Shown here piece after piece: positions 10,137 through 64,000 of a stretch of 64,000 bases of DNA. Each line of letters begins with the position of its first letter. Position 1 is the first letter of the stretch. The notes beneath the pieces were generated by a model. The model did not search any database. It worked only from the letters and a program-made list of their open reading frames with translations, and was not told where the DNA came from. This DNA comes from Allobaculum mucilyticum (lineage in GTDB: Bacteria; Bacillota_I; Bacilli_A; Erysipelotrichales; Erysipelotrichaceae): contig NZ_CP078089.1 in the NCBI RefSeq assembly GCF_022701195.1, positions 1,302,001-1,366,000 of the forward strand. Direction: 5' to 3'. The translations under genes and the position numbers were made by a program.

Positions 10137-12629
10137 TTAAAACAGAATCTCCTTCGCAGATTCTTCTTTTCTCTTTACAGATTTACGGACCGAATCCTCG
10201 AAACGCGAAGCATAGTAATCTTCTGTCCGGTAATCCAGAATATCCAGCACCTGTTTCTGGAAGAATGGATCATCCAGATACGGAATCAGCGAATCATTCA
10301 GTGTCAGCAGATCGTCATCGTTCTGTTCAATCAGTCCGTCAAACGATGCCAGCAGATGCTTTACGGGCATTGTCTGGATTTTCCGCAGATGGCTGAAGTC
10401 CTTGATCTTCTCAAAGTCGTGGCGTGTTGCAGCATCCAGGTCAATCCAGCGGCCTGCCTTGGAAAAGAAGGTTTTCCATGCAGCCAGAACCTCTTCCTTT
10501 GAATACCCGGAAGCAATTGTTCCTCTGTTTATCAGACTCTGGCGCAGGACCTCAAGCACCGCGAGTTTATAGACACGCGAAAGTCTGGTCGTCTCCAGCA
10601 GATGAATGAACTTTCCGCCAGGCGAGTGCTGCAGTTCTTCCTGCTTCTCGTCCAGAAGATCCATTTTGTCCAGGAAACCCAAGTAGTTCTGAAACGGACT
10701 GATTTTGGAATTCTTCCGGCAATATGCCAGATCATCATCATCCAGCAAATCCCAGAGTTCCATTCTTGATGGAAGATGCCCGAGGCTTTCCTTTAGCGAA
10801 TAAACCATCTCCTGCATTGTCTGCAGCGGAGTCTGTTTCCTTTTCTTCAGATTTTCCAGAAGATCGATCAGTTCCAGATCAAAATCCACAACGCACTGCG
10901 ACGGGATGAACTTTCCGCTGACTGAAGGAGCCGCAGAATCAGGTATCGAGGGCGAAGAAATCAGCGATGGGCCGAAGGCAGCTGTTTTATAATTGCCGAT
11001 AAAATCCAGAACTGTGAGATACTCTTTGCCTGGTGCTTTTCGCAGACCGCGCCCCAGCTGCTGCAGGTAGACGACCGCTGATTCAGTCGGACGCAGAAAC
11101 ATAACGAGATCCAGATTCGGAATATCTGTTCCTTCATTGAACAGATCGACTGTAAACAGAATTCTCAGCTCGCCGTTGGCGAGCTTTTTCAGTGCCTTTT
11201 CCCGATCCATATCGGTTGAGTTCTCAGACAGATCAGGGTTTGAAACAACTGATGCACAGGGAATTCCTTTGGATCGGAAACATCGAGCCATAAATCTGGC
11301 ATGGTTTCTTGTGATGCAGAAACCTAAGCCACGATCAGATGGATGTTTGCGGTAATGGCGGTGAATCAGATTTGCACGTTCTGTATTCTGGGCATAAACC
11401 TGCTCAAGCGCCGCAGCATCAAAATGCATTCCGCGACTTTTGACGTCTTTGTAGTCTGTCGGATCATAAATACCGTAATAACGGAACGGACTCAGATACC
11501 CCTGGGCAATCGCATCAAACAGGTTCATCTGGTAAGGCACATTGTAGTCACACAGTGCATACAGATCCTTGCCATCGAGTCGGTATGGAGTGGCAGTCAG
11601 TCCCAGAAGAAATTTTGGATGCAGATAAGACAGTATCTTTTTGTACTGACTTGCAGCTGCATGATGGAACTCATCCACCACGACATAGTCAAAAGCGTCC
11701 AGCGGCAGAACTTCTTCATTCAGTACAGAGGGTTTTGCGAGTGTCTGGACGGAAGCAAAGACCAGATCCCGATCCAGCTCCCGCCTGTCGCCCTCCACAA
11801 ATCCGATCGAATCATCCAGTCGGACAATATGAAAGGCTTTTGCTGCCTGAAGGAGAATCTCCTGTCGATGAGCGATAAAAAGCACGCGGGGAAAGGTTCT
11901 GGAATCAAACGCAGCCAGGAAGGTCTTGCCTGTTCCGGTTGCTGCCTGAACAAGCGCTCTCTGTTCCCCTTTTCCTCGCGTTTCTTCCAGCTTATACAGA
12001 GCTTCTATCTGTACTGCATTGGGCTCAGCACGATCTGGCAGACTTTCCCGGTCTGCCGGCTCATCTTCTGCAGCAAGCTGATCCATCCACTGACCTGTCT
12101 GGAAATTCTGTCTTGTGAGCTGATATTCATCTATCGCATTCTGGTCCAGCTTAATGCTTTCTGACCAGAGATCTTCAAAGCTGTCGAGAATCTTCTCGAC
12201 ACTTTTTTCATTTCCTTTTGACGAGAACGCATAATTCCATTCAATTCCGGAAGTCAGTGCTGATCTGGAAAGATTTGAACTGCCGATAAGCACTTCAATC
12301 TCTTCTTTCTTATGAAAAATCCAGCACTTAGGATGAAAGGAGACCACAGGGTCATTAAACAGGCGCAGCGATATCCGATCGCCAAGTTCATACAGCAGGA
12401 TGCGCAGGGCAGCCGGTTCACTGATTCCCATATAGCTGCCGCAGAGCAGACGAATGGAAACATTCTCCTCGCTAAGCTTCTTAAACAGCGGGAGAAGCAG
12501 CCGGACTCCGGAAAGACGGACAAAAGAGACCGCAAGTTCAATCTTCTGTGCCTGCAAACAGACGCGATTCAGATATGGAAGAATCTGATGCGAAGCGACA
12601 GGTCCGCCGCTGAAGAATTCTGACTGCAT
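10137..12629 (-). CDS. superfamily II helicase with N-terminal PLD-like domain (DUF3427-type)
   Basis: An 830-residue protein. Residues 1-150 form a phospholipase-D-like domain with one HKD-type motif (SFHPKCWIF, then GSSNLSRSAL). About 200-560 is an SF2 helicase core: Walker A QAATGTGKTFLA near 230, DEAH-like box VVVDEFHHA, motif III LGLTATPYR, and motifs V/VI (NEGTDIP, QQLGRGLRK). The C-terminal 270 residues are helical and match the DUF3427 arrangement. Such proteins are predicted DNA-processing enzymes found in accessory loci, and several SF2-PLD combinations (for example in DISARM) are antiviral. A defence or repair role here is inference. The ribosome site is strong (AGGAGGAGCGC). A methyltransferase gene lies 103 bp upstream in the same orientation; an AT-rich promoter-like stretch lies between them. 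Confidence 0.85.
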   Translation of the reverse strand: MQSEFFSGGPVASHQILPYLNRVCLQAQKIELAVSFVRLSGVRLLLPLFKKLSEENVSIRLLCGSYMGISEPAALRILLYELGDRISLRLFNDPVVSFHPKCWIFHKKEEIEVLIGSSNLSRSALTSGIEWNYAFSSKGNEKSVEKILDSFEDLWSESIKLDQNAIDEYQLTRQNFQTGQWMDQLAAEDEPADRESLPDRAEPNAVQIEALYKLEETRGKGEQRALVQAATGTGKTFLAAFDSRTFPRVLFIAHRQEILLQAAKAFHIVRLDDSIGFVEGDRRELDRDLVFASVQTLAKPSVLNEEVLPLDAFDYVVVDEFHHAAASQYKKILSYLHPKFLLGLTATPYRLDGKDLYALCDYNVPYQMNLFDAIAQGYLSPFRYYGIYDPTDYKDVKSRGMHFDAAALEQVYAQNTERANLIHRHYRKHPSDRGLGFCITRNHARFMARCFRSKGIPCASVVSNPDLSENSTDMDREKALKKLANGELRILFTVDLFNEGTDIPNLDLVMFLRPTESAVVYLQQLGRGLRKAPGKEYLTVLDFIGNYKTAAFGPSLISSPSIPDSAAPSVSGKFIPSQCVVDFDLELIDLLENLKKRKQTPLQTMQEMVYSLKESLGHLPSRMELWDLLDDDDLAYCRKNSKISPFQNYLGFLDKMDLLDEKQEELQHSPGGKFIHLLETTRLSRVYKLAVLEVLRQSLINRGTIASGYSKEEVLAAWKTFFSKAGRWIDLDAATRHDFEKIKDFSHLRKIQTMPVKHLLASFDGLIEQNDDDLLTLNDSLIPYLDDPFFQKQVLDILDYRTEDYYASRFEDSVRKSVKRKEESAKEILF

Positions 12630-52407: not shown

Positions 52408-53235
52408 TTAATCGACGTAGTCTCCGCCTTCAACGCCCAGGAACTCTTCAAGCGTCAGACCGCTCTGCGCGATTTCCTGTGCTCTGTCCCCGATATAGCG
52501 AAGATGCCAGGGCTCAGCCTGATATCCGGTGATTGCTTCCTTGCCTTCCTGATAGCGGACAATAAAGCCATATTTCCAGGAATTATCAAGCAGCCACTGA
52601 GCTTCAGTCGGCGAAGTAATCAGATTGCCCGCGCTGTCTTTGAGATCAAAAGCCAGTCCGGTCTGGTGTTCCGAATAGCCCGGTCTTGCCGAGAAAGTAT
52701 CCGCTTCAGCCTGACCATACGCACCGACATAGCCAAAATACAGACCCGACTGTGTGTCGTAGCTTCTGAAATTGGATGTGTCATACGAGACATTCATTCC
52801 CTGTGATGCCATATCCTGCAGCAGCTGTGTGACCTGTGCCTGCGCTGTCGGATCAACACCCGGCGCATAGTCAGCAGGAACGCTGTATTTCTTGTTGACG
52901 ATCAGAATGCCGTCCTTATAGAACAGCCCGTTTTCCTGGACAGGTTCAGAACCTGCCGCATCGGCCTCTACAACCTGATCAGGATCCGCCTGAGCTGTCG
53001 GCTCCGTCTCGTTCTGCCCGTTTCCTTCCGCAATCTTGGCGAGAGCTTCTGAGCGGATGCGCTCTTCTTCTTCGGACGTCCGTTTCGGACTCTGTGCTGC
53101 AGCCTGGGTATCTGAAGTCTTTGTCGACTCAGCCAGCTTGTCTGACGAACATCCGATTGCCGAACCGGCAATCAGCAGGGTAAACAGAACTGCTGATGCT
53201 CTGTACTTCCAGTCACTTCTCTTCTGTCGATCCAT
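52408..53235 (-). CDS. D-Ala-D-Ala carboxypeptidase lipoprotein (VanY/M15B)
   Basis: A 275-residue lipoprotein. The signal ends in the lipobox SAIGC (VLFTLLIAGSAIGCSSD). A 65-residue Glu/Gln/Thr-rich linker leads to an M15B domain starting YKDGILIVNKKYSVPADYAPG. The metal and catalytic segments are SARPGYSEHQTGLAFDL and EPWHLRYIG. It removes terminal D-Ala from peptidoglycan stems at the outer membrane face. It shares the C-terminus LTLEEFLGVEGGDYVD and most of the catalytic domain with the secreted paralogue at 13446-14501, but has no DUF5648 repeats. Absence of vanRS or vanHAX argues for wall remodelling and not glycopeptide resistance. Confidence 0.9.
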   Translation of the reverse strand: MDRQKRSDWKYRASAVLFTLLIAGSAIGCSSDKLAESTKTSDTQAAAQSPKRTSEEEERIRSEALAKIAEGNGQNETEPTAQADPDQVVEADAAGSEPVQENGLFYKDGILIVNKKYSVPADYAPGVDPTAQAQVTQLLQDMASQGMNVSYDTSNFRSYDTQSGLYFGYVGAYGQAEADTFSARPGYSEHQTGLAFDLKDSAGNLITSPTEAQWLLDNSWKYGFIVRYQEGKEAITGYQAEPWHLRYIGDRAQEIAQSGLTLEEFLGVEGGDYVD

Positions 53236-53542: not shown

Positions 53543-54448
53543 ATGAGATGTCCACATTGCGGCAGAGAAATGCCCGATGGAAGTACGTTCTGCTCTGGCT
53601 GCGGCAGCAGACTGAATGCAGGCCAGAACGCACCGCGTAACGGCACCCCTTTCAACAATCCAAACAGCGGACCATTCAACACGCCGCCAAATAATCCTTA
53701 TCCCTCTCCAAACCAGCCGCCAAACGGCCCGTACAAAGGACCTGGTCAGCAGCAGTCTGGTCCAGCTCCATCCCCGAACAGCTATCAGCGCCCTCCTGCG
53801 CCAGGCGGCATGCCGAACCCTAATCCTTCGCCGTACAGCCCGAACAATTTATATCCCAATAATGAGTACGGCCCATCCGGACCGAACGATCCCAACAATT
53901 CTGGCGGCAAGGGCAAAATCATTCTTTACAGCTGCCTTGCGGCTATCGCAGCCTTTGCAATCGGCTTTGGTGCCTGGATGTTCTTCGCAAAAGATGACGG
54001 AGGATCCTCTTCGAATGATTCAGCTGTTGCAGAGACCACACCTTCCACCAGCAATGATGACTTCTATTTCTCGTACTCGTATGATGATGACGAAGAGCTG
54101 ACCGAACCTTCCGCTGAGAGCTCTTCTGTCTCAGTAGAAACTGAAAGTAAAGAACCCGCAGCCTCCGTACATTCAGAAGCTGCTTCTGCAAAACCTGACC
54201 CGGAGCCAGAACCGGAACCGGTACACACAACAACCTATAACGTTCTTTACACCATGAAAATCCGCAGTACCCCTTCCCTGAGCGGAACGCGTGTCGGAAC
54301 ACAGAACGGCAACACTCAGGTCAAAATCTCTGAAACCCACTATGACGGGGATGGAGGAACCTGGGGACTGATCGCGGAAGGCAAATGGGCAGGTAACTGG
54401 ATCTGCATCATTAACGCAGACGGTGAATACCTCAAAGCAGTCTATTGA
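53543..54448 (+). CDS. zinc-ribbon membrane protein with extracellular SH3-like domain
   Basis: A 301-residue protein. The N-terminal zinc ribbon is CPHCGREMPDGSTFCSGCGS (residues 3-22). A Pro/Asn/Gly-rich linker of about 100 residues follows, then one TM helix (about 130-150; ILYSCLAAIAAFAIGFGAWMFF). An acidic Ser/Glu segment leads to a C-terminal SH3-like domain (about 232-301; YNVLYTMKIRSTPSLSGTRVGT, then GTWGLIAEGKWAGNWICI). The topology puts the ribbon and linker inside and the SH3-like domain outside, where such domains bind wall peptides. It opens the kinase/FHA region and resembles the protein at 54732-56357. Confidence 0.8.
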   Translation: MRCPHCGREMPDGSTFCSGCGSRLNAGQNAPRNGTPFNNPNSGPFNTPPNNPYPSPNQPPNGPYKGPGQQQSGPAPSPNSYQRPPAPGGMPNPNPSPYSPNNLYPNNEYGPSGPNDPNNSGGKGKIILYSCLAAIAAFAIGFGAWMFFAKDDGGSSSNDSAVAETTPSTSNDDFYFSYSYDDDEELTEPSAESSSVSVETESKEPAASVHSEAASAKPDPEPEPEPVHTTTYNVLYTMKIRSTPSLSGTRVGTQNGNTQVKISETHYDGDGGTWGLIAEGKWAGNWICIINADGEYLKAVY

Positions 54449-54475
54449 TTCCGTTTCATCCTTTACTTAAGCATT

Positions 54476-54528
54476 AAAGCCATGATGATCCCTGTCGCAG
54501 ATTTCTGAGCTGACCATCATGGCTTTTC
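54476..54528 (+). terminator. terminator of the zinc-ribbon/SH3 gene
   Basis: aaagccatgatg and its complement enclose a 27-base loop, followed by TTTTCTTTTC. Confidence 0.7.
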
Positions 54529-54731
54529 TTTTCACTGCTGATCTTACATATCGTTTACGCTCCAGCCTGCAAAACAAAAGCAGACTCTGCTGTCAGGCAA
54601 AATCTGCTCTTGTTCATTTTACATACTGGTTTTTGGCTATTTCGGTCTTCTATTTTACGAAGACCATGCGAATCACTGCATCCATTGGATATCAAATCGT
54701 AAATTCTTCCGTTTTCGCTTTATATGAACAT

Positions 54732-56357
54732 CTAGCCCCCGACATCAATGTTCTCATCGACTTCTACTTGTTCTCTACGACTGCAGGTTCCGCTGGGTTC
54801 TCCGGGTTCCCGGTTCTCCGGATCCGAGTCTTCTGCAGATTCCATTGAAGTTTCTACACTTGAGCTATCTGCGCTCGAAGCTTCTGTGCTTTCCACTGAA
54901 CTTTCTGCGCTTGTGCTTTCTGTGGATTCTACAAGTTCTACTGAATCATTTATAAGAATCCAGCCTCTAATATCTCTGCTGTCATCATCTGTATGATCGA
55001 CTTTTCCCCAGGTCTCAGTTTCTCCATTTTCAAGCTGAATCGTTGCTTCAGCAGAAACATGCACCTCATGATTCTGAAAGACTACTCCAGGCCTGGATGA
55101 TCCGCTTCCAAGTTCTCCATTAGAACGCATGGATTGATATGGATTAATCGAAGAATCAAGCATCGGAGTATCCTGTCCAGAATTGCCAGAGATTTCTTTA
55201 GGACCTTCATCTCTGCGAATAGGCCTGCTGTCACCAGCGCCTATTGTTTTTTCACTATTCTCAGACTCTACTACTAGCGGTTCGGGATTCTCTGTTTTTT
55301 CATCAAGAGGAGGATATGGATCTGGATCAGACGCGTCAGAAGGAACGTCTGACTTTTCAGTCATAGAGTTCTCTTCAGTACCAGTTGTTTCTTCAGGAGC
55401 ACTGGAATCTTGATTATCCTGACCATTCTGAGCATTCGCTCCCGGATACTTATAAACCGTCACTGATCCGGATGTGACTTTATAGGTCTTGTCTGTCTTG
55501 ATGCACTTTGCTGCATTCTGTTTCAGTCCATTCTCCGGCTCGTCCTCTTCCAGCTTGATCCACTGATTGGAGCCGATCTGGCCCCATTTCGCGCCGTCTT
55601 TTGTTTCTTTGCTGGAGACAACAGTCACTTCTTCACCAGGTTCCAGGGAGTCTCCTGCGGAGTCGCCGTCCACCTGAGAATAAATTTCCATCTTTGTGAT
55701 AGCTACCCAGAGATTCTTCGACTCAATAAAGAACTTTACACCGACTGCCAGTGCCGCAACGACAACAGCGCAGACAATTCCGATAATCAGACCTTTTTTC
55801 TTTTTTGGTTTTCCGCCTGAAGAAGAGCCAGTATCGCGATCTGCACTCATTGCTCTGTCCTTGTACGATGGCTGTGCCTGATGCTGGCTGCTTGAAGAGT
55901 AAGCAGGCTGAGCTGCGGCTGTGCTGTCTGGCTGAGCGTACGAAACAGACGCATTCTGCTGCTGTCTGCGCTGGAGGACATTTCCATATTCCGCATCCGG
56001 CATCATGCCAGTAGGAACAAACCGCGAAACATGTACGGGTACTCTGGCATTTTCGAACTCTCTGATTTTCTTCTTATGGATATTATCCATGTTTTCGACT
56101 TCTTCTCTGGTCAGCTTGTCATGCGACAGATACGAATGGTCCATGACCGAGAAGTCAAAGCCAGCGGAACCGTTTCTGCGTGGAGCAGCACCTTTTTTCG
56201 AATGCCGCGAAGCAGATTTATTTCCCATAAGTACGGTTTCTTCACTTTCCAGTTCTTCAAACTGTCCCCCGGCAGAAGCGTTGTTCAGTCTAGTTCTGCA
56301 GTTCGGACAGTATGAAGCATCATCTGGAATTCTGGAATGACATACTGGACATTTCAT
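54732..56357 (-). CDS. zinc-ribbon membrane protein with SH3-like domains and Ser-rich tail
   Basis: A 541-residue protein. The zinc ribbon CPVCHSRIPDDASYCPNCRT is at residues 3-22. A basic cytosolic linker of about 165 residues follows, including FVPTGMMPDAEYGNVLQRRQQ, and one TM helix at about 188-212 (KKGLIIGIVCAVVVAALAVGVKFFI). Outside are an SH3-like module (AITKMEIYSQVDGDS, then WGQIGSNQWIKLEED), a Glu/Ser/Pro spacer and a second SH3-like region (GVVFQNHEVHVSAEA, then WGKVDHTDDDSRDIRGWI). The C-terminus is a Glu/Ser/Thr low-complexity tail (SSVESTEASSADSS). It lies downstream of the kinase and the 49-residue membrane protein on the same strand and is a candidate kinase target. Confidence 0.8.
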   Translation of the reverse strand: MKCPVCHSRIPDDASYCPNCRTRLNNASAGGQFEELESEETVLMGNKSASRHSKKGAAPRRNGSAGFDFSVMDHSYLSHDKLTREEVENMDNIHKKKIREFENARVPVHVSRFVPTGMMPDAEYGNVLQRRQQQNASVSYAQPDSTAAAQPAYSSSSQHQAQPSYKDRAMSADRDTGSSSGGKPKKKKGLIIGIVCAVVVAALAVGVKFFIESKNLWVAITKMEIYSQVDGDSAGDSLEPGEEVTVVSSKETKDGAKWGQIGSNQWIKLEEDEPENGLKQNAAKCIKTDKTYKVTSGSVTVYKYPGANAQNGQDNQDSSAPEETTGTEENSMTEKSDVPSDASDPDPYPPLDEKTENPEPLVVESENSEKTIGAGDSRPIRRDEGPKEISGNSGQDTPMLDSSINPYQSMRSNGELGSGSSRPGVVFQNHEVHVSAEATIQLENGETETWGKVDHTDDDSRDIRGWILINDSVELVESTESTSAESSVESTEASSADSSSVETSMESAEDSDPENREPGEPSGTCSRREQVEVDENIDVGG

Positions 56358-56479
56358 AGTGGAATCTCCTTTCCCGCATCAGCCAGAAGCATCGCGGTTT
56401 TCTCTTTCTTCTCTTCTTTTAAGAAACGCACAGAACGGTCTGTGTGTTTCTTTTTATGTTGTGCGCGCTCTGCGCGGAT

Positions 56480-56629
56480 TTATCGGCGTCCGGCATCCCT
56501 GTTCATTGGAGCCAGAAGATCGTAGCAGTCCGCAATGCGGGCGGCATCGCGTTTTTTCATGGTGATCAGAAAGTACAGACTGACAGCTGCTGCGATCAGT
56601 CCGATGCCAATCAGAAGCCATCCTGTCAT
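56480..56629 (-). CDS. 49-residue single-pass membrane protein coupled to the kinase gene
   Basis: The ATG overlaps the kinase stop codon (ATGA, 56626-56629) and the frame runs 49 codons to TAA at 56480-56482. The product starts MTGWLLIGIGLIAAAVSLYF, one TM helix, followed by a basic then acidic cytosolic tail (TMKKRDAARIADCYDLLAPM). The overlap, the clean TM helix and the unbroken frame support a real gene. It lies between the kinase and the zinc-ribbon/SH3 gene, so it may be a small subunit or regulator of the kinase. I know no named family. A hairpin at 56424-56449 follows it. Confidence 0.65.
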   Translation of the reverse strand: MTGWLLIGIGLIAAAVSLYFLITMKKRDAARIADCYDLLAPMNRDAGRR

Positions 56630-58635
56630 GAGATCAGTCCTTTCTTTTTCAGCTCGGCTGCTTTTTCCAGCAGGTACTGGTAGTCCGCGCTGTTTTCGTC
56701 ACCCTTTGTGTTCTGCGCTTTCTCAAGTGCTTCCGCAAAATCTGTGTAATCTGCAGGATTTTTCGACCGTTTGGCCTGAGCGGCATCATATTCAATCAGC
56801 GCGCGTCTGGTCGCACTCGTCCGGGAAACTCCGTAGATCTCTTCCATATGCATCACGCTGATGCGGGCAAGATCATATTTGCCCAGCGCACTTTCAAGCG
56901 CTGCCTTCGAATTCCAGACGTCCAGGGTATCCCATTGCTTCTCAATGATCTGATCGACCGCATTCAGAGCCGCATCGATATCCGTATCGGATCCTGTTTT
57001 AGCGGACTGATTCATTTTTGCCTGGGCTAAAAGGCGATAATACTCAGGACCGGCGGAAGCGTCTCCCAGCAGTCCAATCACCGTTTCGAGCGTCTTCACC
57101 GCTCCGTCCGGTTTATTGTTGGAAATCTGCCAGATTGCGGCAGTACGTCCTGCCCGCAGAAGCAGATCCTGACTGGTTGAGGGCTGAATCACACTGAGCA
57201 TCAGACTGATTCCTTTGTCTTTATTTCCGGCATTCCAGTTATTTCTGGCCTGAATGTAACTGACATCCTCTTCGCCAAGTCCCTGATCCTGTCCTTTTTT
57301 CAGAATGGCATTGGCCTGATCATACTGACCGCTTTCGGTCAGAAGAGCCGCATAGTCCCGGCAGTCCTCTGCGTTGAGAAGATCCCGGGAATCCAGTTCC
57401 TCATACACATCCCGGGCCTGCATCGTCTGTCCGATCCTCTCATAGCTGTCGGCAAGCATTTTGAGCGCATCCCGGTACTGCGGTTCTTTCTCCATACTGC
57501 TGTTTCTGAAAACATCATCATTGAGAATCTGGGCGCTTTTTCCGTAATTTCCCTGAGCAAACTCCGTTTCTGCCTGAATCCGTTTTGTGTTCAGTGAACT
57601 GGGTTCCCTGTGTCCAAGACGGTCAGCTTCTTCCGATGCCGCTTCAAAATCGCCCTTCGAAATATCTCTCTGCCAGTTTTCAGTGATCTCCGCAACACTC
57701 TGACTGCGCTGCGTGATGACCATCCATGCGCCAAGTCCGGCACAGGCCAGTCCAAGACAGAGAATGATGCTCAGCAGAATGGTCCGTCTGGAACGGCTGT
57801 TCTGAATTCGAAGAACCTGCGCATCAATGTCTGTGACCCGATTCAGTGCCTGAAGAGCGCGTGCTGCGCTTGGATAACGGGCTCCGTGGTTCGGGTGCAG
57901 CAGATACTTGAGCCACTGGATATACGCCGGCGAGATTCCACGGGCACGAAGCGGATTAAAATCCGGATGTTCATAGCTGTACAGTCTGCCGCAGGCGGCA
58001 AAGTACAGGACTGTTCCAAGTGAATACAGGTCGGTTCGCTGATCCGGCGCCCATCCGGGTGCAAACCCGGCGCGGATATTCTGAAAAGCCTGAATCAGCT
58101 CGGGCGGTGAAAAGCTTGGGGAAAGTCCCTGCAGTCTCGCATTGTCGCTGGTCGCTGAAATGTTGAAATCGATCAGAACCGGTCTTCCGGTCTGCGCACG
58201 GATGATGATGTTATCGGGCTTGATGTCTGCATGAATAACCGGACTCAGGTTGCCATAAGCATCCGTCGCGGTATGCAGAACATTCAGAGCCTCGCATAAG
58301 TCACGGCTCCATCGCATCAGAATCGGAAAGCTGACCGGACCGTTGGTTTCAATCTCCTGAGCAAGCGTGCGTCCAGGAATGTACTCAATAACGCTGTAAA
58401 ACGCATTGTTCAGAGCGATGGCATCCAGAACGCGGGGCAGACACTGGTGAGCAACACGTTTAAGAACTTCAACTTCATGAAGCATCTGCTCCTGGTCGCC
58501 ATCATGTCGGAGCATCTTAAAGATGACTTCCATATTCAGGCGCCTGTGAATGCCCTTGTAAATGTCAGCGTATCCGCCTGTCGAGAAAGGCCGGGTTTCG
58601 ACTCTGTAGGTCTGATTGAATTCCTGCTCCGTCAT
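56626..58635 (-). CDS. transmembrane Ser/Thr protein kinase with TPR-like extracellular region
   Basis: A 669-residue protein. Residues 10-270 form an eukaryotic-like kinase: glycine loop FSTGGYADIYKG, Lys in MEVIFKML, catalytic loop VIHADIKPDNIII (near 134, HAD in place of HRD), metal-binding LIDFN (DFN in place of DFG), and a substrate-loop region SPSFSPPELI. A TM helix lies at about 285-307 (TILLSIILCLGLACAGLGAWMVI). The remaining 360 residues are helical TPR-like repeats (for example YGKSAQILNDDVF, YDQANAILKKGQDQGLG). Unlike PrkC there are no PASTA domains. Catalytic Lys and Asp residues are present, so activity is likely. The adjacent FHA-ABC protein can read phosphothreonine. Confidence 0.88.
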   Translation of the reverse strand: MTEQEFNQTYRVETRPFSTGGYADIYKGIHRRLNMEVIFKMLRHDGDQEQMLHEVEVLKRVAHQCLPRVLDAIALNNAFYSVIEYIPGRTLAQEIETNGPVSFPILMRWSRDLCEALNVLHTATDAYGNLSPVIHADIKPDNIIIRAQTGRPVLIDFNISATSDNARLQGLSPSFSPPELIQAFQNIRAGFAPGWAPDQRTDLYSLGTVLYFAACGRLYSYEHPDFNPLRARGISPAYIQWLKYLLHPNHGARYPSAARALQALNRVTDIDAQVLRIQNSRSRRTILLSIILCLGLACAGLGAWMVITQRSQSVAEITENWQRDISKGDFEAASEEADRLGHREPSSLNTKRIQAETEFAQGNYGKSAQILNDDVFRNSSMEKEPQYRDALKMLADSYERIGQTMQARDVYEELDSRDLLNAEDCRDYAALLTESGQYDQANAILKKGQDQGLGEEDVSYIQARNNWNAGNKDKGISLMLSVIQPSTSQDLLLRAGRTAAIWQISNNKPDGAVKTLETVIGLLGDASAGPEYYRLLAQAKMNQSAKTGSDTDIDAALNAVDQIIEKQWDTLDVWNSKAALESALGKYDLARISVMHMEEIYGVSRTSATRRALIEYDAAQAKRSKNPADYTDFAEALEKAQNTKGDENSADYQYLLEKAAELKKKGLIS

Positions 58636-58928
58636 CCCCGCACTTCCTTTCTTTTCTTTCGGATTCCTGTGATTTTGTCAGCTCTGAGCGGCTTTGGAAG
58701 AAATGATTCATTCAGACACTTTTTTGGAGTCTGTCAGAATCGTATGATTACAGTAGAAATTTATTTTCACTTATTTTCAACATAAAAATCGTCTTTTACA
58801 AAAAAGATCAGCGAATTTCATACGGTATGCTCAAACTCTTCCGTTCTTTGGACCGTTTTCCTTCTGCATGCCTTCTTTGTCTGCTCACGCAGAATATCCA
58901 TCCGATCTTCAGAAAGGAATATTGTTCT

Positions 58929-59327
58929 ATGCACTGTTCAAAATGCGGATATGACAATCCATCCGGAGCCAAGTACTGCCTGCAGTGCGGCAAGCCTCTG
59001 AGTGCCTCAAAAACTTCCGCTTCACAGCCGCGTTCAGCTTCCGAACTGCGCCCCGCAGCCTATGATCAGCCGCAGTATCTGAGCGAGCCGATCAACCCGT
59101 CGATAAACGCTGAGCCTTACAAGCCCATCCGAAAAGATTTTCGCCAGTACTCTGCTAAAACTGCACCAGTAAAAGAAGAGGGATGGTCCAACGGGAAAAT
59201 TGCGGCTCTGATCATCGTCCTGACGATTCTTGCACTGCTTGTTATTTACCTCATTCTGGCTTTCTTTTATCCAGATTTTCTCTGGCTTCCAGAACCTGTT
59301 GCATCCTGGTTCGAAAGCCTGAAATAA
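58929..59327 (+). CDS. small zinc-ribbon membrane protein with WLPEPVASW tail
   Basis: A 132-residue protein. The start at 58929 follows AAAGGAA and gives a zinc ribbon at once (MHCSKCGYDNPSGAKYCLQCGKPL, residues 3-22). A Ser/Pro/Tyr-rich linker follows, then one TM helix at about 96-118 (IAALIIVLTILALLVIYLILAFF). A short outer tail contains WLPEPVASWFESLK and ends the protein. The same WLPEPxASW motif follows the TM helix of the next gene, 110 bp downstream on the same strand. It looks like the minimal form of the zinc-ribbon family in this region. The gene is divergent from the kinase. Function unknown. Confidence 0.75.
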   Translation: MHCSKCGYDNPSGAKYCLQCGKPLSASKTSASQPRSASELRPAAYDQPQYLSEPINPSINAEPYKPIRKDFRQYSAKTAPVKEEGWSNGKIAALIIVLTILALLVIYLILAFFYPDFLWLPEPVASWFESLK

Positions 59328-59437
59328 TCAGTTCATCTATGAACTGAGCTATTGAGCATACTGAAACAGAAAAAAAGACAGACGGATTGTTCTGTCTCAT
59401 ACGTTCTTATTCTTCTGTTTCTTGAAAGGAATTCATT

Positions 59438-60748
59438 ATGCGCTGTCCAAAATGTGGAACTTCTCTTCCAGACCACGCCAAATTCTGTACCACCTGCGGA
59501 GCTCCGCTCAACCCTTCACCCGCACCAGGCAGCCCGGGACCCTACGGAATGCCAAATTCGTCTTTCCAGCCTTCTTCTGCTCCATTCCCCGCAGGGCAGC
59601 CGGCTCCTCAGTACCAGTCCAGCTCTCCTTCCGCACAGAGCTATTCATCCTATTCGTCTTCCTCACAGGCTCCAAACAAACAGCCAAAGCAGAAAAACTG
59701 GACAAAAATCATCTCCATTACCTGTGTTTCACTTCTGGTCCTGACTCTGGCGATCTACCTTGGCCTGGGCTTTGCGATGCCCGGAAGCGTCTGGCTGCCG
59801 GAGCCCCTGGCTTCATGGGCCGGATCGAATGCAGAAGAAGGACTCATTGAAACCAGTCCCGCCAACGATACGTATACGCTTCTTTCCGATCAGTCCGGAC
59901 ACCCGGAACCCTTCTCTGACACGGACAGCGGTCCGCGCTTCCGTGAGGGAGAGAGCGTTCTGATCGAAGAAACAGCCCGCAAAGAAAACAGCGAAGAGCT
60001 CTATGGCCGCACGGGCGATCAGTGGCTGCTGATCAGCGATGGCACCACGCAGTATCTGCAGCCTGAAAGTTCCGTCACTCTCGCCCTGCCTACTGAATAT
60101 GAAGAAACAACGCCGGAAGTCGAGGCAGAACTCAGTACTGAATCCTCCGACTATGGTTTCCGTGTCAACGATCGGGTTGAACTTGATACTTCAGTCGGCG
60201 CCTATGGCTATGAGACGGTCGAGATCGATGATGACGGAGATTCAGCCGTCGTATGGTATCCGATCGAATATTTGACGCGTGATGAAGACATCTTCTCCGG
60301 TCCAGCCTGTGCCCAGATTCTGTTTGACTACTACGGCATGAACGCATCGCAGTCTGAGCTTGCGAAAGGGGCTGTAGTGAACGGCATCGTTGACTATACA
60401 AAGCTGACAAACAACATGAACCGGCTGAAGACAGACAGCAGTCTGCACTTTACCGGAAAGTACTATGAGCCAGGCGAAGCGAGTCCGGAAAACCTGATTT
60501 CTCACTTCACAAGCTATCTTGAATCTGGTAACGGTCCTCTGTTTGTTGTCATCCGCAACAGGGATCTGAGCGGAAGCGACAAATCGGTCTACTGTGTTCT
60601 CTATGGAGTCGCAAAGAACGAAGGCGAAGGAAACCGTGAATTCTATCTCTATGCGCCGACTGAACTTAATCAGCCCTTTATCGTCGGCGAAAAGCTTCTG
60701 ATCAACTCCATGGCTGCAGCCGGCTTCTACTGCTACATCTCCGCTTAG
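59438..60748 (+). CDS. zinc-ribbon membrane protein with extracellular C39-like domain
   Basis: A 436-residue protein. The zinc ribbon CPKCGTSLPDHAKFCTTCGA occupies residues 3-22, a Pro/Ser-rich linker runs to 85, and one TM helix covers about 90-110 (ISITCVSLLVLTLAIYLGLGF). WLPEPLASW follows, as in the upstream gene. An SH3-like region (LYGRTGDQWLLISDGTTQYL) comes next. The C-terminal 150 residues resemble Peptidase_C39_2: SGPACAQILFDYYG holds the Cys, but the segment where His is expected reads SVYCVLYGV with no His. The protease may thus be inactive or use another residue. It lies between the small zinc-ribbon gene and the FHA-ABC gene and ends at a terminator. Confidence 0.72.
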   Translation: MRCPKCGTSLPDHAKFCTTCGAPLNPSPAPGSPGPYGMPNSSFQPSSAPFPAGQPAPQYQSSSPSAQSYSSYSSSSQAPNKQPKQKNWTKIISITCVSLLVLTLAIYLGLGFAMPGSVWLPEPLASWAGSNAEEGLIETSPANDTYTLLSDQSGHPEPFSDTDSGPRFREGESVLIEETARKENSEELYGRTGDQWLLISDGTTQYLQPESSVTLALPTEYEETTPEVEAELSTESSDYGFRVNDRVELDTSVGAYGYETVEIDDDGDSAVVWYPIEYLTRDEDIFSGPACAQILFDYYGMNASQSELAKGAVVNGIVDYTKLTNNMNRLKTDSSLHFTGKYYEPGEASPENLISHFTSYLESGNGPLFVVIRNRDLSGSDKSVYCVLYGVAKNEGEGNREFYLYAPTELNQPFIVGEKLLINSMAAAGFYCYISA

Positions 60749-60766
60749 CTTTTATCGTTATTTCGG

Positions 60767-60803
60767 CTCTCTGAACTCCCCGCAGAACGGGGGATTCAGA
60801 GAG
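60767..60803 (+). terminator. terminator of the zinc-ribbon/C39-like gene
   Basis: CTCTCTGAA and CCCCG with their complements form a long stem followed by ATTTTTTG. Confidence 0.8.
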
Positions 60804-61008
60804 ATTTTTTGTGTGACAGACCGGGAAGCAAAGAAGTTCCGGACAGAATTCCGGCAGTTTCTGCCGATCTTTTCAATCGTGTAAAAAAATAGTTCAAAAG
60901 TGTCAAAATAGAATGGAGTGGTCATTTCTGTTTCAGAACTCTGCAGATGGAAAGTGGTCCATTTAAAACTGAATTTGAATTAAGAGAAAAAAGAAAAGGT
61001 ATTTTTCC

Positions 61009-63339
61009 ATGGCAATCCTAACCATCATCAATATGTACGGCGAGCTGGATACGATCGATCTCGACACCTTCGCATCGCACATGATCTGTGCCGGCCGGAA
61101 TGATCAGGAAAACCAGATTATCCTGCTCGACCCCGTCGTCTCCTCAAGGCAGATGACGTTCTACCGGGCAAACGATGGTCATTATGGCTTTTTTGATAAC
61201 GGCTCAGCGAACGGAACGATTCTGACCAGGCTTGGTCAGCGCTATATCTTCAACTCGCCTGAACAGAGAGCGGTCCTTGAAGACGGGGATGTCCTCCGGA
61301 TTGGCGATCCGGACAGTCCAAACCGTCAGACGCTCATTCTCTACTGCGAAAGAGGAACAGCCAAAGACTGGACCCAGTATGCGATCGGTTCTTCGCCCGT
61401 TACGCTTGGTCATCATCCCAACTGCCTGATCCCGGTACCGATCATCGGTTCGCCGGAATATATCGGCTCCATTTCCGCAAACGGTCTCGATTCGTGTGTC
61501 ATTGAACTGGCCGGGCCGATGGACGGTGTCCTGCTCAACGGTTCGCCCTTTGGAACTCGAGCTGTTCTGACAGAAAAAGATGTCCTGTCACTGTTCTCCC
61601 GGCCTGTCATCTACTCCAAAGGCTCCCTGTTTTACCGCAAGAAAACAGACGGCATTTCGCTGGAAGCTTCACACATCTCCAAGCTTATTCCAGCTGGATC
61701 CAAGTCCGTCTTTTCCGGCAAAAAGAAAAAAATTCTCGATGACGTCTCTCTTGTCATCGAGCCGAACCAGTTTGTAGCAATCATCGGCGGATCAGGTGCC
61801 GGCAAAACCACGCTGATGAACGCTCTTTCCGCATTTGATCCGAACTTTACCGGATCTGTCCGTCTGAACGGAACAGACCTGGTATCGAACTTTGAACAGT
61901 TCAAAAGCGAAATCGGCTATGTTCCGCAGCAGGATATTCTGTATGAAGAATTCCCGCTCGACAAAATGCTCGAAAGTGCCGCCAGACTGCGCATGCCCCA
62001 GTCTTCAACCCGTGACCAGATCAAAAAACGCGTCAAGCAGGTTCTGGCTATGGTTGATCTGTCCCAGCATGAGAAAACCATCATTTCCAAGCTGTCCGGC
62101 GGTCAGAAAAAACGGGCATCCATCGCGGTTGAGCTGCTGAGCGATCCCCAGCTGTTCTTCCTGGATGAGCCAACCTCCGGTCTGGACCCTGGAACAGAAA
62201 AAGCGCTGATGCTGACACTGAACCGGCTGGCCAAAGAGTACAACAAGACCATCATCATGGTTACCCACAACATCAGTTCGCTGGAAAAGTGCGACCAGGT
62301 CATCTTCATGGAACCCGGCGGCCGCCTGGCTTTCATGGGTCCGGTTGCCAAAGCAAAAAGCTATTTCCATACCAGCGAACTCTCGGATGTCTATCAGATT
62401 CTTTCTGAAGACCGAAACGGTCAGTACGCTGCAGCATGGCGTGCTTCGCAGAGCAATCAGGCGCCGACCGTCCCAAATACACGTGCCATTAAGCCTCGTT
62501 CAAAAGACAGCTTCTTCCATCAGTGGGGCGTTCTGCTCAACCGCTATTTCTCTCTGCTGTTCCGCAAAAAATCCCTGCTGGCTCTGCTGATCATTCAGCC
62601 GATTATCATCGCCGTTCTGCTCGCTTTAGTTGCCAGCGAAGATACATTTACGGTTTATGACGACACCAAGTCCATGATGTTCTCTCTTGCCTGTGCTGCA
62701 ATCTGGCTTGGTCTGTTCGATACGATTCAGGATATCTGTTCGGAGCGGACAATCATCAAGCGCGAATACATGAATAAGCTGAGGCTCTCCTGTTATCTAT
62801 GTGCCAAACTTGTGGTCTATTCGTGCGTCGGCATCATTCAGGCCTTACTGCTTGGCGGCATTTATCTGGCCATGATGGGACAGAACCTGGAAGGCATCTT
62901 CACGCCATGGGGCGATGCGGAAATGATTCTCGTATTGTTCATGACCATTCTGGCTTCTCAGGCTCTTGGTTTTATCGTCAGTGCGCTCAGCCGTTCCGCT
63001 GACAAAGCCATGGTCAGCGCGCCATTCCTGCTGATCATTCAGCTTCTGTTCTCCGGCATTCTGTTCAAGCTTGAAGGCTTTGGCGAATTCATCTCCTACT
63101 TCACCATTTCCAAATGGTCAGTTGAAGGTCTTGGTTCTGTAGCCAACCTCAATGCTCTCGAATCAAGGATCGCCAGGGAATATCCCGACCTGCCTTTAGG
63201 CGAGCGGGAAGTTGAAGAAGTCTTCCGCTATTCCGTCGGCCATCTCAATCTGGTCCTGTTCATTCTCCTGCTCTTTGTGGTTGTGGAAATGATCTTGTGC
63301 GCCCTGGCACTGCGGCGCATCAAAAAGGACCAGCGCTAA
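61009..63339 (+). CDS. FHA-domain ABC transporter (ATPase and ABC-2/ABCG permease fusion)
   Basis: A 776-residue half-transporter. Residues 22-95 form an FHA domain (GRNDQENQI, VVSSRQMTF, DNGSANGT), which in this family binds phosphothreonine. A second, more divergent FHA-like region covers about 120-205 (LGHHPNCLIPV, MDGVLLNGSPFG). The ABC domain has Walker A GGSGAGKTT (near 260), signature LSGGQKKRASIA (361) and Walker B LFFLDEPTSGLD (382). The C-terminal 270 residues contain six TM helices of the ABCG type (LLALLIIQPIIIAVLLALVA). Family members pair genetically with Ser/Thr kinases. Phosphorylated targets of the local kinase are the obvious candidates for binding. The exported substrate is unknown. 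Confidence 0.88.
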   Translation: MAILTIINMYGELDTIDLDTFASHMICAGRNDQENQIILLDPVVSSRQMTFYRANDGHYGFFDNGSANGTILTRLGQRYIFNSPEQRAVLEDGDVLRIGDPDSPNRQTLILYCERGTAKDWTQYAIGSSPVTLGHHPNCLIPVPIIGSPEYIGSISANGLDSCVIELAGPMDGVLLNGSPFGTRAVLTEKDVLSLFSRPVIYSKGSLFYRKKTDGISLEASHISKLIPAGSKSVFSGKKKKILDDVSLVIEPNQFVAIIGGSGAGKTTLMNALSAFDPNFTGSVRLNGTDLVSNFEQFKSEIGYVPQQDILYEEFPLDKMLESAARLRMPQSSTRDQIKKRVKQVLAMVDLSQHEKTIISKLSGGQKKRASIAVELLSDPQLFFLDEPTSGLDPGTEKALMLTLNRLAKEYNKTIIMVTHNISSLEKCDQVIFMEPGGRLAFMGPVAKAKSYFHTSELSDVYQILSEDRNGQYAAAWRASQSNQAPTVPNTRAIKPRSKDSFFHQWGVLLNRYFSLLFRKKSLLALLIIQPIIIAVLLALVASEDTFTVYDDTKSMMFSLACAAIWLGLFDTIQDICSERTIIKREYMNKLRLSCYLCAKLVVYSCVGIIQALLLGGIYLAMMGQNLEGIFTPWGDAEMILVLFMTILASQALGFIVSALSRSADKAMVSAPFLLIIQLLFSGILFKLEGFGEFISYFTISKWSVEGLGSVANLNALESRIAREYPDLPLGEREVEEVFRYSVGHLNLVLFILLLFVVVEMILCALALRRIKKDQR

Positions 63340-63430
63340 AAAAACGATGCTGACTGACGCAGTTTCTGCATCAGATCTTTGCATCGTTAATCCTTCGTCT
63401 TTTGTCTATTCCATTCAGAAAGGAAAGTCT

Positions 63431-64000
63431 ATGAAACTCTGTCTGTGGATTCCCGCATATAACGTTTCTGTTCCTGCTGCACCGACCAGTCTTGCGATTG
63501 GTCTGCGCAGCCGTCCAGCCCCGCTGGTCGACCCGAAAAAACTTGAACAGAAACCAAAAGCCTCATCAGGCAAGCATTCCTCATCGAACAGTTCATCCAA
63601 AGGCTCGACTCCTGTTTCTTCCGCACAGCTCTCCAAAGAAGAAGCAAGACGCGCCTTCCTCAACTCCGGACGTCCAGAACACGCCTGGGTTTCGTCCTCT
63701 AAACCCGAATTTGAAAAGTCCTCTTCTTCTTTCCAGAGCGAGCGTCATGAATTCACCCCTTTTTCAGACGACAACCACGTAAAGAAATCCGAACCCGTAC
63801 GGCAGGATGAATCAGATTCTTCAGATAATCCATTCCGCCCCTTCTTCTCCGACTCTTTGGGCGAAAAAGAAAGCAGCATCGAAGAACGGATCGAAGAACC
63901 CGCAAAAGAACCAGCACCTCAAAAAGCTGAAGAAGAGAAAAAAGAAGACTCTCTCACTGAGCCAGAACCTGCTTCTCCACTCTTTCAGGAAACAGAAAAT
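63431..64000 (+). CDS. unknown acidic low-complexity protein, N-terminal part (runs off window)
   Basis: An open frame of 190 codons from an ATG at 63431 (after AGAAAGGAAAG) to the window edge. The start MKLCLWIPAYNVSVPAAPTSLAIGL is mildly hydrophobic but not a normal signal peptide. The rest is rich in Ser, Lys, Glu and Pro (for example SSGKHSSSNSSSKGS, then KEEARRAFLNSGRPEHAW and EERIEEPAKEPAPQK). It follows the FHA-ABC gene by 92 bp, with a dyad (63343-63388) between, and may be part of the same group. Long Ser/Thr/Glu linkers are typical of kinase substrates and of proteins with an FHA-binding tail; this is inference. The function cannot be read. Confidence 0.6.
   Translation, partial: MKLCLWIPAYNVSVPAAPTSLAIGLRSRPAPLVDPKKLEQKPKASSGKHSSSNSSSKGSTPVSSAQLSKEEARRAFLNSGRPEHAWVSSSKPEFEKSSSSFQSERHEFTPFSDDNHVKKSEPVRQDESDSSDNPFRPFFSDSLGEKESSIEERIEEPAKEPAPQKAEEEKKEDSLTEPEPASPLFQETEN

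Follow-up and report, generated by a model that had tools for sequence, protein, structure and literature searches.

The locus described here lies at positions 53543–64000 of a 64,000-nucleotide stretch (the window; genome positions 1302001–1366000) of the Allobaculum mucilyticum genome, which is 3.14 Mb long and forms one contig. Its genes encode a transmembrane (TM) Ser/Thr kinase, a 49-aa membrane peptide, four zinc-ribbon (ZR) membrane proteins and an FHA-FHA-ABCG exporter, and the open reading frame (ORF) list and Pfam bear out the positions and domains given in a preliminary description of this DNA. On the minus strand, reading leftward, the kinase gene (56626–58635) is followed by the gene of the 49-aa single-TM peptide (56480–56629), with a 4-nt overlap at the kinase stop, and by that of a 541-aa ZR-TM protein (54732–56357). 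On the plus strand, reading rightward, come a 132-aa ZR-TM protein (58929–59327), a 436-aa ZR-TM protein with a C39-like outer domain (59438–60748) and the 776-aa exporter (61009–63339). A 301-aa ZR-TM protein (53543–54448, plus strand) forms the left edge of the cluster. The cluster extends past the window. A disordered protein with a C-terminal FHA domain begins at 63347 on the plus strand and runs on to L028:12009; it is followed on the same strand by EGQ (an L028 ORF ending at 12331) and LAZ (L028:12335–12619), and then by two transposase-like ORFs (L028:13145–16127) and a fifth ZR-TM protein. Here, Lnnn denotes fetched DNA stretches and Gnnn genomes compared; L028 and L029 cover positions 1355000–1394999 of the same genome.

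The exporter gives Pfam matches to FHA (3.1e-8), ABC_tran (1e-28) and ABC2_membrane (2.1e-23). The fusion of an FHA domain to an ABCG transporter, as first described, therefore stands, but the FHA region is double: the FHA alignment, and only this, reveals a second, degenerate FHA-like region at residues ~119–220, shortly after FHA1 ends at ~99. FHA1 retains R, S and N, the residues expected for phosphothreonine binding. The exporter was found at 1e-50 in 4 of the 145 genomes of the family (its own, G092, G051 and G141, with the homologues in L009, L049 and L050) and at 1e-80 in 2 of 296 genomes of the class, its own and G396, where the match covers residues 238–715 only and lacks the FHA part. 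A plasmid search with the exporter at 1e-70 gave nothing of use.

The kinase (Pkinase, 2.3e-23) has a single TM segment near residue 285. Its proposed TPR-like outer region is less secure than the kinase domain, since the outer TPR hits are weak and all below the Pfam cut-offs. Lys40, Asp137, Asn142 and Asp156 are invariant in a five-row alignment. In the tree, a branch with support 100/98 separates the DFN kinases from the TseD-like and PrkC-like kinases, and the window and L009 kinases group on the DFN side at 100/100. Kinase matches occur in 6 of the 145 family genomes at 1e-25. At 1e-60, a profile of five kinases finds matches in 19 of the 391 genomes from the class to which L010's genome belongs; 20 further stretches (L066–L085) and L010 together cover all 23 listed matches to it. 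The 49-aa peptide has a 45-aa counterpart in L009, which likewise overlaps the kinase stop. A tiny TM peptide follows 11 of the 14 DFN-clade kinases, compared with 7 of 286 control ORFs in these and related loci; it is missing behind the kinases of L078, L079 and L082. By position and architecture the window peptide matches the small single-TM protein (H or K) of type VII secretion systems (T7SS), although it is too short for proof of homology.

All four ZR proteins begin with the layout C3-x2-C6-x10-C17-x2-C20 and carry one predicted TM segment each, in agreement with the preliminary description. Zn_Ribbon_1 matches at 1.9e-8 in the 301-aa protein (TM ~126–144), which has a relative in L009, at 5e-9 in the 436-aa protein and, below the cut-off, at 1.2e-4 in the 541-aa protein (TM 189–207). 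The outer parts, described at first as SH3-like, C39-like or a short tail, fared less well. SH3_3 in the 301-aa protein is sub-threshold (0.0057), and SH3 was undetected in the stretches of two other ZR proteins scanned alone. For the C39-like domain, the one Pfam match (PF13529, E=6.7e-6) is in the L009 orthologue, and the domain of the window protein itself gives none. C39 peptidases have catalytic Cys, His and Asp. When the window protein is aligned with its L009 orthologue against this consensus, Ser occupies the expected Cys position, and neither His nor Asp is found at its expected place. The domain is thus probably non-catalytic and more likely binds than cleaves. The 132-aa protein with the short tail is similar to the N-terminal part of the 436-aa protein (BLASTP, 32–36% over 130–140 aa) and has WLPEPxASW in common with it. 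In L009, roughly 330–380 nt separate the kinase and C39-like genes, without space for a counterpart. Therefore, the 132-aa gene is probably a truncated duplicate of its 436-aa neighbour. The L009 relative of the fifth ZR-TM protein is weakly lectin-like (E=0.01, below cut-off).

The FHA protein is 527 aa long when read from just before Met 63431 and 553 aa from 63347; either may be the start. Its FHA domain matches at 7.8e-14, and it has no DUF6382 match at 0.01. Its counterparts in other loci are similar in this respect, DUF6382 being below the Pfam cut-off in L066, L040 and L074 and undetected in L068 and L052, so that the label 'DUF6382-FHA' for such proteins rests on similarity between loci. 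EGQ is a domain of ~107 aa that contains VFLETGQPLG in the window genome, VFLESGQPLG in L009, L049 and L054, and VFLSSGQPLG in L010. It has no Pfam or NCBIfam match at 0.01; against PDB sequences only nanobody or antibody chains appeared (E 0.34–0.69), and viral contigs gave nothing of use. LAZ combines LGRAYY with a zinc ribbon in 94 aa. EGQ was found in 4 of the 145 family genomes (its own, G092, G136 and G051), in 1 of 392 phylum genomes (its own) and in 1 of 345 genomes around that of L010 (G583). EGQ and FHA-ABCG occur together in 3 of the 145 family genomes and each alone in 1 (Fisher 3e-5, ignoring relatedness).

The preliminary description had linked the kinase, FHA and exporter by proximity and had proposed that conservation of the neighbourhood in relatives be examined. 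The full neighbourhood is rare, and the exporter's four family genomes include its own and that of L009. L009 lies in G092, and the two are counted once. Collinearity of the window with L009 extends to the VanY, NERD-like and EamA-like genes on the flanks, and we therefore treat this gene order as background synteny and rejected it as functional evidence. FHA-ABCG itself recurs in L049 and L050, which gives the link support beyond proximity. In G051 (L049), of another genus, FHA is fused to EGQ and followed by LAZ and then by FHA-ABCG, with the contig ending soon after; this genome, 81% complete, has no kinase match at 1e-25. In G141 (L050), of a third genus, FHA-ABCG stands 14 nt behind a TM kinase of a different clade. 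L010 combines a DFN kinase, a TM peptide of 51 aa, a membrane protein bearing EGQ, two LAZ proteins, a vWA-FHA protein and five or more ZR-TM proteins. The fetched 35–86 kb of its contig gave no match to EssC or FHA-ABCG, and the next 18 kb gave weak ABC matches only.

In G136 (L054), of the same genus as the window genome, a comparable set surrounds a different motor: a ZR protein, a DFN-type kinase, a 66-aa TM peptide, FHA-EssC, small helical proteins, FHA, EGQ and LAZ. The order FHA, EGQ, LAZ behind FHA-EssC is the one seen behind FHA-ABCG in the window genome. The window-genome proteins match this genome by tblastn (kinase 1.6e-26, FHA 5.8e-15, LAZ 5.6e-13, EGQ 2e-9). The assembly, 58% complete, shows no FHA-ABCG match at 1e-40 and is rich in frameshifts, so that its genes can be compared only piecewise.

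The stretches fetched with the kinase profile extend this T7SS connection. With the window and L009 left out, 12 of the 14 rows of the DFN clade remain, and EssC (FtsK_SpoIIIE, Pfam) is present in the fetched stretches of four (L051, L066, L068 and L070). The kinase matches of L066 and L068 are full-length, and each stands with an FHA-bearing EssC (FtsK_SpoIIIE 7e-49), an FHA protein, a TM peptide of 48 or 52 aa, and a ZR-TM protein with TPR and LRR matches in its outer part. L067 has the same set, its contig stopping before the expected EssC, and L070 has part of EssC and two WXG100 proteins. ZR-TM proteins also recur near the DFN kinases of L069, L010 and L052. Related sets at EssC loci thus indicate that the kinase, the tiny peptide and the ZR protein are not exporter-specific. 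At the window locus itself, four EssC references have no tblastn match in genome positions 1355000–1394999, and neither WXG100 nor DUF6382 occurs among the Pfam-scanned locus proteins, very small ORFs besides the 49-aa peptide lying outside that scan. Because EssC and WXG100 were sought there and not found, we do not file the locus as a T7SS.

A further common feature is a threonine motif, defined by acidic residues together with a Thr whose +3 position is hydrophobic. A hydrophobic +3 residue is preferred by mycobacterial kinases and FHA domains. The motif was first noticed by eye in cytosolic linkers, and statistics on those discovery proteins, being circular, were not counted as evidence. 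The rule was fixed before L066–L085 were fetched. Across 17 held-out cytosolic segments there are 52 sites versus 15.3 expected, and 0 of 2000 shuffles reached as many; ten outer segments of the same loci hold 88 sites versus 83.6 expected (P 0.32), and of these ten I_L081 is weakly positive (P 0.022). The held-out count excludes the 45–60-aa peptides behind the L066–L070 kinases and the corresponding products of L073 (66 aa) and L083 (291 aa); linkers were used from 5 of 11 ORFs labelled FHA/J. The effect per protein is uneven: 12 of the 17 segments have one site or more, where 9.4 would be expected, and repeats account for the high total. The ZR-TM proteins at L066:11045–13237, L067:6437–8635 and L068:11144–13294 each carry seven copies of TVLL, and those of L066 and L067 one TVPM in addition. 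These TVLL repeats stand in tandem between the zinc ribbon and the TM segment, in units such as DEGTVLL, DDQTVLL and NDDQTVLL.

At the window locus, the 541-aa ZR protein holds the same position relative to the kinase and peptide as the repeat-bearing proteins of L066–L068. Under a matrix built on the 33 distinct sites of the held-out set, Thr41 in its cytosolic linker (SEETVLMG) comes first, at 11.4 bits, among 952 Thr sites from 44 background ORFs and 11 locus proteins. Ranks 2–10 are background proteins, the second at 9.35 bits, and no other locus site is in the top ten; in loci L011–L027, 0 of 3937 Thr sites reach 11 bits. Judged by sequence, Thr41 is a candidate phospho-site. Among the four window ZR proteins only this one has a candidate site in its inner linker, and another is the probable truncated duplicate; both points speak against the earlier picture of simply interchangeable sensors. 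Separately, small TM proteins follow the kinases in L074, L075, L076, L077, L080 and L084, several with cytosolic-tail arrays of ETELL, ATMVL or ETDVL, and a 967-aa FHA protein with 12 PTSLL repeats lies at L038:11617–14520.

Several known systems invite comparison. PknF of M. tuberculosis is a TM kinase, and the exporter Rv1747 is phosphorylated by this neighbouring kinase. Rv1747 and pknF form a two-gene operon (PMC3908365, as far as its available text goes). The window exporter, like Rv1747, an annotated exporter, unites tandem FHA, a nucleotide-binding domain and a TM domain on one chain, with a TM Ser/Thr kinase gene nearby (PMC5549992, available text). In contrast to that operon, the window kinase is on the divergent strand with two ZR genes between, whereas the L050 kinase is directly adjacent to its exporter. 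The wide spacing in Rv1747 between FHA I (29–92) and the FHA II construct (201–310; PMC5549992) does not occur in the window exporter (~99 to ~119). In addition, the window has a DFN-clade kinase with a TPR-like outer region and extra ZR-TM proteins, TM peptide, FHA, EGQ and LAZ.

The T7SSe and T7SSj of Bacillota have, in the accessible portions of the 2024 survey by Garrett (PMC11217815), a TM kinase (TsjD, with an outer TPR), the small single-TM proteins H and K, a separate FHA protein and FHA on the translocating ATPase. The window locus similarly has a TM kinase with a TPR-like outer part (sub-cut-off), a small single-TM protein, a separate FHA protein and FHA on its transporter, but this transporter is an ABCG exporter, and EssC, WXG100 and DUF6382 were not found in the scans there. 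The T7SSe and T7SSj also include TsxJ, which combines DUF6382 with FHA, and a ubiquitin-like protein, TsxB. The word 'zinc' occurs 0 times in the available main text of that survey, so the ZR-TM parts appear to be undescribed in it. The topology and pseudokinase nature of EssB are mentioned in the same source. The window kinase differs from this pseudokinase in that it keeps the catalytic residues in alignment. EssB/YukC of T7SSb has a cytosolic kinase fold, one TM segment and an outer part, and is a partner of FHA domains. In TerY-P triads, a kinase and a zinc ribbon occur in one gene group with vWA and PP2C proteins. This identity was rejected, as no vWA or PP2C is among the scanned locus proteins and no PP2C_2 is at the locus; a vWA-FHA protein is present in the related L010.

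Taken together, the best reading by analogy is that the locus may work like PknF–Rv1747 and has parts in common with T7SS loci. We lean, with modest confidence, towards phospho-controlled export, in which regulatory parts of the T7SS type are coupled to an FHA-FHA-ABCG exporter where a T7SS would have the EssC ATPase. This draws on the parts present, the kinase clade, the co-location with EssC or FHA-ABCG, the kept catalytic and FHA residues and the Thr-motif enrichment in related loci; the phosphorylation, binding, sensing, gating and cargo that follow are conjectural. The outer domains (the TPR-like region of the kinase, the C39-like domain and the other ZR outer parts) would sense the cell surface. 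The kinase, with the tiny TM peptide as its subunit, would phosphorylate threonines of the cytosolic linkers, Thr41 of the 541-aa ZR protein first. FHA1 of the exporter would dock on the phosphothreonine, so that the ABCG pump is recruited or gated, with the FHA protein, EGQ and LAZ as a scaffold. The cargo is perhaps an envelope lipid, glycan or peptide. In the preliminary description, modular sensors fed one kinase and one exporter of a possible undescribed phospho-signalling system. The company of FHA-ABCG in L049 and L050 favours the exporter link, while the kinase-side parts also occur at EssC loci and the ZR proteins are not interchangeable; what had seemed undescribed now looks like T7SS-type phospho-control in a variant form, coupled to an ABCG exporter.

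A number of observations weigh against this reading. The system is sporadic and rare across the family, class and phylum surveys, and eight of the 12 DFN-clade rows have no EssC in the fetched stretch, with L067 and L071 near contig ends. The G136 kinase scores 318 and 300 summed bits to the L052 and L010 kinases and 166 to that of the window, and because the window–L009 branch is long (3.04), the role of the window kinase might have changed. No phosphatase was hit at the locus, unlike the T7SSe and T7SSj with their PPM phosphatase TsxF; PP2C_2 matches lie elsewhere in the genome, none within 190 kb, and one of them adjoins a PrkC-like kinase. The FHA domain of the 527-aa protein is without the usual Arg. 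For the motif, the sequences had been viewed before the segments were delimited, tandem repeats inflate the counts, P is below 0.01 in 6 of the 17 held-out segments taken singly (a near-identical pair among them), and 0 of 5 FHA-protein linkers are enriched. Matrix training included SEETVLLH of L066, near-identical to the Thr41 site. L009 has no site reaching 7 bits, its best inner-linker site being ENTTIMG (5.4). Under a looser rule, the fifth ZR protein, the 527-aa protein and LAZ have one match each (P 0.08–0.45, within chance), and in the window genome Thr7 of LAZ, which ranks 175th, was rejected as an instance of the motif; Thr7 of the L049 LAZ is the best of 219 sites in its own locus.

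The main rival, which we consider rather unlikely, is that the kinase, peptide, ZR proteins, FHA, EGQ and LAZ regulate the genome's own EssC at ~1798 kb (L040) in trans, and that the ABCG exporter is an added client or a neighbour. This EssC matches that of G136 at 71% over 243 aa, which also counts against phospho-controlled export. Such service in trans is conceivable because, among the four EssCs compared, that of L040 is nearest to the EssC of G136, which adjoins kinase, peptide, EGQ and LAZ, and because L040, with EssC, a ParA-like protein and an FHA protein (DUF6382 sub-threshold), has no kinase match in the fetched 18 kb. G022 similarly has a DFN kinase with FHA and ParA-like genes and no EssC found on its 27.8 kb contig. 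However, FHA-EGQ-LAZ adjoins FHA-ABCG in the window genome, L009 and G051, and in G141 FHA-ABCG directly follows a TM kinase of another clade.

An ordinary PknF–Rv1747-like pair, in which the interaction is confined to kinase and exporter, with no role for the ZR and small proteins, appears improbable. The exporter architecture, the nearby TM kinase and the kept binding residues of FHA1 agree with it, but the peptide behind 11 of 14 DFN-clade kinases, the recurrence of ZR-TM proteins near these kinases and the absence of Rv1747's wide FHA spacing do not. A chance or lineage-bound neighbourhood of envelope genes with no common function is very unlikely: the collinearity with L009 includes unrelated genes, and G003 (same genus, 98% complete) has no exporter, kinase or EGQ match at the family-survey thresholds, but the FHA-EGQ-LAZ trio reappears in other contexts in G051 and G136, EGQ and LAZ accompany a DFN kinase in L010, and FHA and EGQ occur as a fusion.

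Other features were noted in and around the locus. A VanY-type D,D-carboxypeptidase gene (window 52408–53235) adjoins it, as in L009, possibly as background synteny only. A promoter scan of the sequence found fewer sites than shuffles; terminator-like sites number 23 versus 12.9 in shuffles and were not used as evidence. The window genome has two further EssC-type loci, L039 and L040, one with WXG100, a DFN-motif TM kinase and FHA and the other with ParA-like and FHA proteins. A second kinase cluster (L038, genome 1157–1177 kb) contains a TseD-like kinase, a TM protein, several FHA proteins, a PP2C_2 match, FHA-kinase proteins and, by eye, Cna-like surface proteins, with no EssC noticed in 20 kb.

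Beyond phospho-controlled export at this locus, we tentatively suggest that Bacillota may possess one phospho-control chassis, made of a DFN kinase, a ~50-aa TM subunit, a ZR adaptor with acidic-T-x-x-hydrophobic sites, FHA, EGQ and LAZ, whose motors, FHA-EssC or FHA-ABCG, could be swapped. The Thr motif might then be a common phospho-code for the FHA domains of the motors, with tandem copies tuning avidity. Among papers judged by title and abstract opening, mostly from non-subscription journals, none dealt with T7SS-type parts alongside an FHA-ABCG exporter, and none with arrays of Thr in the small TM proteins of T7SS. Control of the newer T7SS subtypes by Thr phosphorylation is raised as a possibility in the available text of the 2024 survey (PMC11217815), where the ZR TM adaptor, EGQ and LAZ, here candidate T7SS-associated components, are unnamed. 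The specific predicted phospho-sites, SEETVLMG and the tandem DEGTVLL and NDDQTVLL arrays, would make such control directly testable. If the proposal is true, ABCG exporters and T7SS, thought to be unrelated, would be linked via common kinase-side parts.

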